DNA of 41,635 bases from the NCBI GenBank assembly GCA_029881675.1, contig JAOUMD010000007.1:1-41635 (forward strand), in the 5' to 3' direction. A model generated the notes under the pieces. That model was not told the DNA's origin and made no database searches. It saw nothing but the letters and a program-made list of their open reading frames with translations. Below are positions 4,900 to 8,669 of the stretch, piece after piece. Positions within the stretch are counted from its first letter, which is position 1. Each line of letters starts with the position of its first letter. Both the position numbers and the translations under genes were made by a program. The DNA is from Minisyncoccota bacterium (GTDB taxonomy: Bacteria; Patescibacteriota; Microgenomatia; UBA1400; PJMF01).

Positions 4900-5913
4900 A
4901 TGTTGAAATTCATTCGTGTCACCAAAAAATATAATGCAGATAAACCTGCTCTAGATAGTGTCTCCTTTGACATTGATTCTGGAGAACTAGTCGTTATTAC
5001 TGGTCCATCGGGCTCAGGTAAAACTACCCTACTGAAACTTCTTACAAAAGATGAGGATCCAACTGAAGGAGAAATATACTTTAAAGAAGAGAATATTAAT
5101 TTATTAAAAAGATCTAAAGTTCCATATCATAGAAGAAAAATTGGTTCTGTCTTTCAAGATTACAAACTTTTACCAGAACTTAACATTTGGGAGAATATTG
5201 CTTTAGCACTCTCTATTCTAGGTCATCCAGACCATGAGATTGAAGAAAAAGTTACTGATTTACTAAAACTTGTCGGATTAACTGATAAGGCATATCTATT
5301 CCCTCATCAATTATCTGGTGGTGAAGCTCAAAGAATTAGTATCGCTAGAGCATTGTCTACTGCTCCTGAAATGATTTTTGCTGATGAGCCAACTGGAAAC
5401 CTTGACGCAGCTAATTCTCTAATTATTGCCAAGCTATTAAAGAAAATTAATGATCTTGGTACTACTGTGATGGTGACTACACATGATCCAGTAGTAATTA
5501 AACATCTTTCTGGTTCCAGAATGATGGAGCTTAAGGATGGTGTTTTGATTGATTCGAATGAGAAGAAAGAAAAGAAAAAGGAAAAAGAAGAAAAGGCTGA
5601 AGATAAAGAAGATGATAAGGATAAGGGAGAATCTAAAAAGACAAAAGAGGATGAAGAGTTCCCAAAAACAAAAGATAATGTAAAAGAAAAAAAGAAGTCT
5701 ATGTTTAATCTTTTTGGTATGTTTGGCAAGAAGAAGCAACAACCTAAAGAAGAAATAGATGATAAAAAGGTTGAAGATAGTAAGTCTGATGATCAAGATA
5801 AGAAAGAAGATAAGGCTGAGGATGAAGACAGTGAGGATAATGATAAGAAAAAAGAATTAACTAAAGAAAAAAAAGAAATAAAAAAAGTAACAAAATCTAA
5901 AGAAGATAAATAA
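4900..5913 (+). CDS. ftsE: Cell-division ABC transporter ATP-binding protein FtsE with long charged C-terminal tail
   Basis: Walker A GPSGSGKTT, signature LSGGEAQR, Walker B MIFADEPT; followed by FtsX; about 120 aa of K/E/D-rich tail. Confidence 0.92.
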   Translation: MLKFIRVTKKYNADKPALDSVSFDIDSGELVVITGPSGSGKTTLLKLLTKDEDPTEGEIYFKEENINLLKRSKVPYHRRKIGSVFQDYKLLPELNIWENIALALSILGHPDHEIEEKVTDLLKLVGLTDKAYLFPHQLSGGEAQRISIARALSTAPEMIFADEPTGNLDAANSLIIAKLLKKINDLGTTVMVTTHDPVVIKHLSGSRMMELKDGVLIDSNEKKEKKKEKEEKAEDKEDDKDKGESKKTKEDEEFPKTKDNVKEKKKSMFNLFGMFGKKKQQPKEEIDDKKVEDSKSDDQDKKEDKAEDEDSEDNDKKKELTKEKKEIKKVTKSKEDK

Positions 5914-5914
5914 T

Positions 5915-6784
5915 ATGAATCCTCTTGCTTCAGCCCTAGTGACAATGCGCCGTTCACCATATCAGTCATTGGCTTCTATTGTGATTCTTTCCTTTACTTT
6001 TTTTGTTGCATACGTTTTCTCATATTTTCTAATAGGTAGTGAAGTTGTCTTAAGATTTTTTGAAACTCGTCCTCAAGTAATTGCTTTTTTTGATATAGAG
6101 GCTGATGCTGGGCAAATAAATGAGCTTGGTGAACAAATTAAAGAAAAAGATTATGTTAGTGGTATTAAGTTAGTCAGTAAAGATGAAGCATTAAAGATTT
6201 ATCAAGCTGAGAATAAAGACGATCCTTTGTTACTTGAACTAGTAACTGCACAAATTCTACCTGCAAGTATTGAAGTATCTGGAAATACTATTTCAGATCT
6301 ACCAAAGATTAAGGAAGATTTGGAAAAATTTGATAATGTTGATGAGGTTATCTTACAGCAGGATATCATTGATTCCTTATCTGGATGGACTGCTTCTATT
6401 AGATTAGTTGGTCTGGCTAGTGTTGTTTTGCTTAGTTTAGTCTCTCTACTGATTATGGTAGTTGTAATTGGAATGAAGGTTGTAGCCAAGCGTCCTGCAA
6501 TTGCCATTATGCGTTTGATTGGTGCTACTAAGTGGTTTATCAGAGGTCCATTTGTTTTTGAAGGAATTATGTATGGTCTACTGAGTTCAATTATTGGCTG
6601 GGGAGGAAGTTATGTAGGTCTACTCTACATTACTCCATGGCTCAAAGAGTTTTTGGGTACCATTCCAGTTTTCCCTATTCCACCAGCTTTCTATGCTTTA
6701 CAACTAAGTATTGGTACTCTTGGCGGTATTCTCCTTGGTGCATTTGCTGGTTCTATTGCGGTAGGCAGAATGATTAAGAAGTGA
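5915..6784 (+). CDS. ftsX: Cell-division permease FtsX
   Basis: Four predicted TM segments, extracellular domain after the first TM, IAIMRLIGATKWFIRGPFVFEG motif; directly after ftsE. Confidence 0.92.
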   Translation: MNPLASALVTMRRSPYQSLASIVILSFTFFVAYVFSYFLIGSEVVLRFFETRPQVIAFFDIEADAGQINELGEQIKEKDYVSGIKLVSKDEALKIYQAENKDDPLLLELVTAQILPASIEVSGNTISDLPKIKEDLEKFDNVDEVILQQDIIDSLSGWTASIRLVGLASVVLLSLVSLLIMVVVIGMKVVAKRPAIAIMRLIGATKWFIRGPFVFEGIMYGLLSSIIGWGGSYVGLLYITPWLKEFLGTIPVFPIPPAFYALQLSIGTLGGILLGAFAGSIAVGRMIKK

Positions 6785-6799
6785 TACAACTTTTCTAAT

Positions 6800-8035
6800 A
6801 TGAGAAGATTCCACAAAATAGCACTTACGCTTTGTTTTTCTCTAGTTATATTCTTTAGTTCAAATATTTTAGTTAATGCTGTTGCTAATTGTGATGATAT
6901 TAGTTGTAACAAGGATGATGATGGTACATATTTACGTTGTATTGAAGAAAAAACATCTTGTTGGGTAGAAAAGATAGAAGAAGCTCAATCATCAGCTATT
7001 ACTCTAAAAAGCACTATTAATATTCTCAATGGACAAATTAATGTTCTTCAACTTCAAATAGATCAGAGTCTTTCTGAGATTACTTCCTTAGAAAAAGAAA
7101 TTATTGAGTTAACAGACAGAATTGAAGGGCTTAACTATTCTTTAGATAAGTTAACCAGTGTCTTGGTAGAAAGAGTAGCAGAACAATACAAGAGGACTTA
7201 CACTAATCCCATCTTAGTATTTTTCTCTAAAACTAGGTTTGCTACAAAATTATCAGAGTTTAAATATCTTAAGCTAGCAGGTCAACAAACAGTCGATGCA
7301 ATGGAGAGAGCAGAAAGCCAAAAGATTACTTATGATGAGCAAAAATTACTTAAGAAACAAAAGCAGGAGGAACTTGAGTCAAAGAGAATTCAATTGGAGG
7401 GACAAAAGAGTCAGCTAGCTGGAAAGAGAGCTGCAGAACAAAATCTTTTGACTGAAACAAAGAATAATGAGGCTATTTTTCAACAAAAGTTAGCTGAGGC
7501 TAAAGCAGAGTTCCAAGCTATTCAGGCTATTATTGCTGGAAGAGGTCAGGAAACAGAGGTTGGCCATGTTAATGAGGGAGATAAAATAGCTACAGTAATT
7601 CAAGGACAATCATGTAACTCCAGTGGAACACATGTCCACTTAATAATTTCAGATTTTGGAGTAGTTAAAAATCCATTTAATTATCTTAAATCAGGTATAG
7701 ATTATCAAAATTGTTCCGGTTCTAGCTGTGGTAGTAGCGATGGAGACTCATTTAATCCATCTGGATCTTGGGATTGGCCTATTTCAGCTACAGTTCAATT
7801 ATGGCAAGGATATGGAAGTACTTGGGCGACCCGCAATACTTGGGTCAGTCGTATCTATAGCTCTCATAATGGAATTGATATCAGAAGTTTAGGCTCAAGC
7901 ACTGTGACGACAATGCAGTCTGGTACCTTATATCAAGGAAGCTTTACAGGTTCTGGTTCATGTCGTTTAAGGTATGTCAGAGTAGCTCATGATGATAGTG
8001 AAATAAGTTCTTTTTACTTGCATATTAATTATTAA
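6800..8035 (+). CDS. Secreted coiled-coil peptidoglycan hydrolase (PcsB/EnvC-like) with apparently permuted M23/LytM domain
   Basis: Signal peptide, coiled coil, GTHVHLII (HxH) block followed later by SHNGIDI (HxxxD) and SFYLHINY blocks; third gene after ftsE-ftsX. Confidence 0.85.
   Translation: MRRFHKIALTLCFSLVIFFSSNILVNAVANCDDISCNKDDDGTYLRCIEEKTSCWVEKIEEAQSSAITLKSTINILNGQINVLQLQIDQSLSEITSLEKEIIELTDRIEGLNYSLDKLTSVLVERVAEQYKRTYTNPILVFFSKTRFATKLSEFKYLKLAGQQTVDAMERAESQKITYDEQKLLKKQKQEELESKRIQLEGQKSQLAGKRAAEQNLLTETKNNEAIFQQKLAEAKAEFQAIQAIIAGRGQETEVGHVNEGDKIATVIQGQSCNSSGTHVHLIISDFGVVKNPFNYLKSGIDYQNCSGSSCGSSDGDSFNPSGSWDWPISATVQLWQGYGSTWATRNTWVSRIYSSHNGIDIRSLGSSTVTTMQSGTLYQGSFTGSGSCRLRYVRVAHDDSEISSFYLHINY
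7973..8033 (+). repeat. 61-bp direct repeat, copy 1 (3' end of the hydrolase gene)
   Basis: Identical to 8609-8669 by base-by-base comparison (tatgtcagagtagctcatgatgatagtgaaataagttctttttacttgcatattaattatt). Confidence 0.97.
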
Positions 8036-8079
8036 CACTAATTAATCTTAATGAAAGATTACTGTAATAAACTGTATGG

Positions 8080-8493
8080 GTGTTAATAACAGTTGCCCCA
8101 CAAAATATTTATAAAACTAAAGTAATACCTTTAAAGGGCTCTGTTTATAAAAGAGTTTATAAGTCAGCTTTATCTTATTACCAAATTATTAAATCAAGAA
8201 CTAAGCGTAAACCATATACAAGGTCTACTTATTTTAAGAAGAAAATTTTTCTTGATATTTTTTGGTCACACTTATTTGATAAAGGAAGAAAGATTAGAAC
8301 ACAAAGGTTAAAATTACTACCTTGTGCCATTGAGTTATTGGAAAGAACAACTTGCTCTCCAGAGATAATAAAGTCAGAAAAGTTTAAAAGAGAGACTTTT
8401 TATCGTTTTACTGGGCAAACTGAATCAGGTCAATTATTTATAGTTCAGGTTAAAAAGAGAAATAACCATCTTTATTTCATCTCAGTATACTAA
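8080..8493 (+). CDS. Small basic protein of unknown function carried between the 61-bp repeats
   Basis: GTG-start ORF, 137 aa: ...IFLDIFWSHLFDKGRKIRTQRLKLLPCAIELL...FYRFTGQTESGQLFIVQVKKRNNHLYFISVY. Confidence 0.7.
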   Translation: MLITVAPQNIYKTKVIPLKGSVYKRVYKSALSYYQIIKSRTKRKPYTRSTYFKKKIFLDIFWSHLFDKGRKIRTQRLKLLPCAIELLERTTCSPEIIKSEKFKRETFYRFTGQTESGQLFIVQVKKRNNHLYFISVY

Positions 8494-8501
8494 AACAAAA
8501 A

Positions 8502-8544
8502 AAGTCTTTGGCGGTGTAGGGCGAAACCATACGGCTAAAGACTT
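8502..8544. repeat. Stem-loop downstream of the cassette ORF
   Basis: AAGTCTTTGGC ... GCTAAAGACTT arms (8 Watson-Crick pairs, one G-T, then GC/GC), inner GTGT/ATAC and GG/CC pairs around gcgaaa. Confidence 0.8.
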
Positions 8545-8608
8545 GATTCTGTCTGTAATATAGTACTTTTTGTATCACTAGTCAATTATTAGTTTTGATT
8601 TGTTTTAT

Positions 8609-8669
8609 TATGTCAGAGTAGCTCATGATGATAGTGAAATAAGTTCTTTTTACTTGCATATTAATTATT
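8609..8669 (+). repeat. 61-bp direct repeat, copy 2
   Basis: Identical to 7973-8033; still reads YVRVAHDDSEISSFYLHINY followed by a stop (TGA instead of TAA). Confidence 0.97.

Follow-up and report, generated by a model that had tools for sequence, protein, structure and literature searches.

The window analysed here, the whole 41,635-nucleotide stretch of contig JAOUMD010000007.1 from a Minisyncoccota bacterium (Patescibacteria), encodes directly after ftsE and ftsX a protein of 411 amino acids (aa) whose C-terminal M23 peptidase domain has its two halves in reversed order. We propose, with a probability of about 0.82, that in this genome the protein serves as the peptidoglycan hydrolase partnered with FtsEX, an endopeptidase under FtsEX control, and that its M23 domain arose by an ancient circular permutation. 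The computed part of this proposal comprises the swapped order, the conserved site residues, the position after ftsEX, the distribution across the phylum and the compatibility with one origin. The protein is divided as follows.

6800-8035, forward strand: predicted FtsEX-linked coiled-coil hydrolase with a circularly permuted M23 domain, 411 aa (open reading frame (ORF), profile matches, homologues)
6800-6886, forward strand: predicted hydrophobic N-terminal export signal or anchor, residues 1-29 (sequence reading; the model has a helix at 2-23)
6920-7537, forward strand: coiled coil forming a helical hairpin like that of EnvC and PcsB, residues 41-246 (EnvC profile matches residues 57-252, E 3e-5; PDB matches of the model)
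7481-7543, forward strand: candidate restraining arm, a conserved alanine-rich helix end at residues 228-248 (alignments; analogy to the EnvC arm and PcsB helix)
7556-7690, forward strand: M23 C-terminal half in first place, EVGHVNEGD...HVH...NPFNYL, residues 253-297 (motif reading, profile)
7631-7639, forward strand: HxH motif, H278-V-H280 (invariant among 37 homologues)
7691-7768, forward strand: linker bridging the usual C- and N-termini of M23, residues 298-323 (length variable among homologues)
7769-8032, forward strand: M23 N-terminal half in last place, WDWPI...HNGID...YLHINY, residues 324-411 (motif reading, profile)
7865-7879, forward strand: HxxxD motif HNGID, residues 356-360, with H356 and D360 (both invariant among 37 homologues)
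8015-8023, forward strand: YxH motif, Y406-L-H408, three residues from the C-terminus (Y and H invariant; tail lengths)

Order of the M23 halves in the window protein

The chain runs from the HxH half through the linker to the half with HxxxD and YxH, and then stops: NPFNYL begins at residue 291, WDWPIS at residue 324, and YLHINY (residues 406-411) is followed immediately by the stop codon. The site residues of HxxxD, YxH and HxH are all present. Judged by residues and profile the domain is an M23 peptidase, though not by its order along the chain, and the succession HxH, HxxxD, YxH makes it a permuted variant of the family and not a canonical member.

Profile matching was carried out in both orders. 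In the native full-length protein, the Pfam profile Peptidase_M23 (PF01551, curated cut-off 28.7 bits) matched residues 355-410 to profile positions 2-53 at 22.8 bits, and the isolated domain matched as two stretches in swapped positions (26.5 bits). When the halves were swapped to the ordinary order, a single continuous match to positions 2-92 was obtained at 32.8 bits. The same re-joining gave each of three divergent homologues one continuous stretch and a higher score (65.2 to 73.8, 58.1 to 64.7 and 51.1 to 60.6 bits); these three surpass the cut-off already in native order. Because the permuted order can bring scores under the Pfam cut-off, annotation may overlook such enzymes. A profile of the permuted domain also found solved M23 chains, and two of these (3slu and 9gy1) show both stretches in the ordinary order, with the seam position appearing as a gap of about five residues between them (295 to 300 in 3slu, 91 to 97 in 9gy1).

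The sequence-only reading of this DNA had placed the usual HxH half first and the HxxxD/YLHI half last, at the very end of the protein, had suggested that the halves join end to start, and had counted all expected metal and catalytic residues as present. The residue map and the Pfam pieces bear out the order, the continuous and higher-scoring match of the re-joined halves in four proteins agrees with the proposed joint, and the residues proved invariant across 37 homologues. A circular permutation of the M23 domain is thus supported by the profile matches in both orders, the conserved order and residues, and the linkage to FtsX described below.

Conservation across Patescibacteria

A homologue of the window protein was found in 51 of 52 related genomes. 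In 37 aligned permuted domains the invariant positions comprise the S, the G and both H of SxGxHxH, the P of NP, a G and a P close to where WP begins, the H and the D of HxxxD, one Gly, and both fixed residues of YxH; taken together they amount essentially to the M23 site plus a few structural S, G and P. When the class was surveyed (374 genomes), the best 150 listed matches all covered both halves in the swapped order at more than 126 bits, and permuted matches were found beyond the class too. With profiles of the separate halves, ORFs were then sorted on loci fetched from across Patescibacteria (CPR, candidate phyla radiation), where 123 distinct M23-like ORFs divided into 91 permuted and 32 canonical ones, so that the swapped order is kept in homologues through class and phylum. 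The two kinds also differ in where they end: permuted proteins continue for 0-4 residues past the profile match of the last half (two of them for 12 and 15), canonical ones for 47-88, and the ranges are disjoint. From the catalytic YxH histidine to the C-terminus the median in permuted proteins is three residues. All three motifs passed a simple test in 82 of the 91.

The sequence-only reading had named simple truncation as the alternative, in which orthologues would have an HxxxD...HxH domain in normal order lying downstream. This was not what the homologues showed, since 89 of the 91 permuted proteins stop 0-4 residues past the match. The related idea of a decayed or truncated tandem M23 product that looks permuted only by chance draws on tandem domains being the usual path to permutation, and on the gene tandems of three genomes described below. 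We reject it as highly improbable: order, end point and invariant site residues are alike in 91 distinct proteins, and none of the ORFs examined contained three or four halves.

Outside Patescibacteria, a tblastn search of plasmids and phages with a permuted domain of canonical-looking sequence returned two-piece matches for the most part; the four phage or plasmid records inspected, two single-piece candidates among them, were all canonical, and a search of viral contigs found no relative. As a separate observation, one permuted lineage (loci L107, L114, L128 and L144) has a motif of longer spacing, e.g. YHSGRAIDL, replacing HxxxD, possibly a variant metal site.

Linkage to FtsX and other genes in the same genomes

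The ORF at 6800-8035 closes a three-gene block (4900-8035), in which both preceding genes were identified with family profiles:

4900-5913, forward strand: ftsE, FtsEX ATPase with a charged C-terminal extension (TIGR02673 FtsE, 249 bits, E 3.7e-74, slightly below the curated cut-off of 264.85)
5915-6784, forward strand: ftsX, permease-like partner with an extracellular domain (PF18075 FtsX_ECD and PF02687 FtsX above cut-off; TIGR00439, 156.6 bits)

The extension of FtsE (5560-5913) is a tail of about 115 residues past the ABC domain, strongly charged and rich in Lys, Glu and Asp.

FtsX lies upstream of 81 of the 91 permuted genes (five more have too short a flank) and of 1 of the 32 canonical ones, which marks the permuted form as specifically the FtsEX-linked form. 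Of 29 genomes searched, 28 have canonical M23 genes at other places, and all 20 of these other genes that were fetched had the canonical order. The window's own genome, 94.6% complete, gave a single M23 match, a weak one to the permuted domain. Amidase_3 was not found in 26 of the 29 genomes searched, the window's own among them.

The 411-aa protein has the layout of an FtsEX partner, namely an export signal (predicted from sequence alone), an N-terminal antiparallel coiled coil and a C-terminal hydrolase-type domain. In the full-length model, which is of low confidence, the coiled coil consists of two long helices (residues 41-133 and 147-246), and the best PDB match is the FtsE/FtsX/EnvC complex, with PcsB and RipC also in the list. 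The EnvC equivalog profile NF008644 matched the coiled coil alone, at 23.1 bits against a cut-off of 270, so the protein is not EnvC proper. By profile and model, the scaffold is of the EnvC/PcsB/RipC kind of FtsEX-partner coiled-coil proteins.

On the same coiled-coil scaffold, a C39-like (papain-like cysteine peptidase) domain replaces the permuted M23 domain in 15 distinct homologues, 14 of which stand after FtsX (C39-bearing scaffold homologues at loci L037, L040, L042-L044 and L046-L054). One genome of the window's own genus has a permuted-M23 and a C39 protein in tandem (L056, 3724-4974). The presence of a C39 enzyme in the same slot after FtsX argues for an active enzyme in that slot.

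Origin of the permutation

Trees of permuted and canonical proteins were built from two data sets, with the halves re-joined in one order. When all permuted rows were held as one clade, the likelihood was better than that of the free quick tree (p-AU, approximately unbiased test, 0.915 and 0.66), and a tree that joins the permuted proteins of the class to its own canonical M23 proteins was rejected (p 1.6e-50). A single old event would be the simplest reading; the trees are compatible with one origin but do not prove it. Several independent permutations in separate lineages of Patescibacteria would account for the two label changes, instead of one, that the free quick trees require, but we consider this unlikely, as the one-clade constraint improves the likelihood in both data sets and the grouping with the class's own canonical M23 proteins is so strongly rejected.

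The permutation thus probably arose once, early in Patescibacteria. It may have come about when an M23 domain was duplicated and its outer halves were then lost, or between M23 genes standing in tandem in the ftsEX operon; because three or four halves were seen in none of the ORFs, we infer this route and do not read it from intermediates. Three genomes of one family (L101, L139 and L145) have the gene order ftsX, permuted gene, canonical gene, and a fourth genome (L127) has ftsE and ftsX followed by two canonical M23 genes. Both arrangements are possible footprints of the permutation's origin or of its loss.

Proposed function and alternatives

We infer from homology and conservation that the two halves fold into one ordinary M23 zinc site, that the enzyme cuts peptide cross-links directly and that FtsEX switches it. 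The exported coiled coil would dock onto FtsX. The new chain ends would fall within the short loop that follows the catalytic YxH strand, and the old ends would be bridged by the linker. The M23-type domain of EnvC has no catalytic residues and activates amidases; a restraining arm keeps this domain off, and FtsEX is thought to displace the arm; an alanine-rich helix of PcsB is comparable to it (PMC7668044). As proposed for EnvC, ATP-driven FtsEX motion of the coiled coil may turn the enzyme on, and the alanine-rich helix end (residues 228-248) could act as the restraining element. In the permuted layout this helix would lead almost directly into the strand that in canonical M23 domains follows the catalytic YxH.

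More tentatively, at slightly short of even odds, we suggest a wider version of this proposal. A permutation of single origin would have been fixed early in Patescibacteria; the coiled coil would enter the domain beside the YxH strand, so that FtsEX motion may act directly on the active site; and the FtsEX slot would be held by the permuted form in much of the phylum, with canonical M23 proteins elsewhere in the same genomes.

The protein could instead be no enzyme, acting as an EnvC-like amidase activator or persisting as a wall-binding relic. The match of its coiled coil to the EnvC profile would suit such a role, as would the precedent of EnvC itself, whose LytM domain lacks catalytic residues and acts through amidase activation (PMC7668044). 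Unlike EnvC, however, the permuted proteins retain the three active-site motifs in the great majority (82 of 91, as given above), and Amidase_3 is missing from the search results for 26 of the 29 genomes, so that a non-enzymatic role appears quite improbable. With the site residues intact and Amidase_3 absent from most genomes searched, direct endopeptidase action controlled by FtsEX is more likely than amidase activation.

A further alternative concerns how the site is closed. In a swapped dimer, the site would be completed between two chains and an obligate dimer would be needed for function. This is compatible with the sequence data, and in many forms more than 30 residues separate the prolines of NP and WP. 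We nevertheless regard it as a poor candidate: in several families the distance shrinks to 11-12 residues, the shortest found, which fits direct closure within one chain, and the EnvC:FtsX stoichiometry is one EnvC per two FtsX (PMC7668044). These short linkers favour intramolecular closure over the swapped dimer.

Several results weigh against the proposed permuted enzyme. The model of the domain, built from six sequences, reached a pLDDT (predicted local distance difference test) of 66.6 and a pTM (predicted template modelling score) of 0.71, with residues 70-99 and 101-129 below 50, and the full-length model, likewise from six sequences, a pTM of 0.39. A Foldseek search with the domain model gave no M23 match; Foldseek aligns in sequence order and is therefore poorly suited to a permuted fold. 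Nine of the 91 permuted proteins failed the simple motif test; in six the failing motif was HxxxD (five of these in family f70, where the spacing is longer or the half-profile match begins past the motif); of the other three, one is cut by a contig end, one has no clear HxH and one no clear YxH. The trees, finally, rest on 129-135 columns only. On the other side, the order of strands in the low-confidence domain model is compatible with a permuted M23 domain. The sequence-only reading had predicted a complete but permuted active site in a division hydrolase, to be checked by structure prediction. Its conserved residues and order and the FtsX linkage hold, and its fold and activity are predicted from homology and conservation.

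Comparison with known systems

Few wall hydrolases are as widespread or as well studied as the M23 peptidases, and how FtsEX activates its hydrolase is an unsettled question of division biology. The window protein shares the HxxxD, YxH, HxH and NPxxYL tail blocks with M23/LytM/lysostaphin-type enzymes (PF01551; LytM, lysostaphin, ShyA, MepM). It differs from them in that its halves are reversed and it ends after YxH, whereas 3slu, 9gy1 and the four phage or plasmid proteins are canonical. With EnvC of E. coli and Vibrio it has in common the partnership with ftsEX and the succession of antiparallel coiled coil, helix and M23-type C-terminal domain; the domain of EnvC, however, has the normal order and no catalytic residues (PMC7668044), while that of the window protein is permuted, has the residues and usually occurs without Amidase_3. 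PcsB (CHAP) and the RipC/CwlO-type proteins (NlpC/P60) likewise combine an FtsX-binding coiled coil with a direct peptidoglycan hydrolase, but theirs is a cysteine peptidase of unrelated fold. Among the relatives of the window protein, some do have a cysteine peptidase, of the C39-like kind, in this slot.

The permuted NlpC/P60 families (LRAT-like, YaeF) cited in a review (PMC6403190) are a precedent for permutation within a superfamily of cell-wall peptidases; in fold and chemistry they are unrelated to the window protein. HABAS domains of RNA polymerase and its relatives are small beta domains with topologies related by circular permutation, and their authors aligned them with an M23 peptidase (PMC11515920); they have no catalytic site and are not M23 enzymes.

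No description of a permuted M23/LytM/lysostaphin domain was found in the open-access literature searched, a scope outside which many subscription papers and preprints lie. For FtsEX or EnvC in Patescibacteria, the search of this literature returned papers that, by their titles and abstracts, deal with other subjects. The swapped M23 order, conserved across the phylum, has thus apparently not been described before. Tied to FtsEX as far as tested, the permuted domain offers a natural experiment on how a coiled coil relays FtsEX motion to an active site, and a marker for the early evolution of Patescibacteria, a huge and mostly uncultured phylum.

Repeat and cassette at the 3' end of the gene

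The 3' end of the 411-aa coding sequence (7973-8033) recurs at 8609-8669 as a perfect direct repeat of 61 nucleotides (nt), spaced 636 nt. Between the copies lies an insert of 575 nt (8034-8608) with a 137-aa ORF (8080-8493) and a terminator-like hairpin. The end of the protein is unaltered by the insert, and the stop codon is TAA instead of TGA. The arrangement looks like that of a small mobile cassette that entered at the 3' end of the gene and rebuilt that end. Relatives of the 137-aa ORF were found in only three other genomes of the 34 searched in the family (loci L163, L164, L165 and L166). At one of these loci (L166, 1398-2035, genome G014) a 46-nt direct repeat (80%) with a spacing of 592 nt encloses the relative. 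This geometry, like that in the window, suggests that the two inserts belong to a family of small mobile cassettes.
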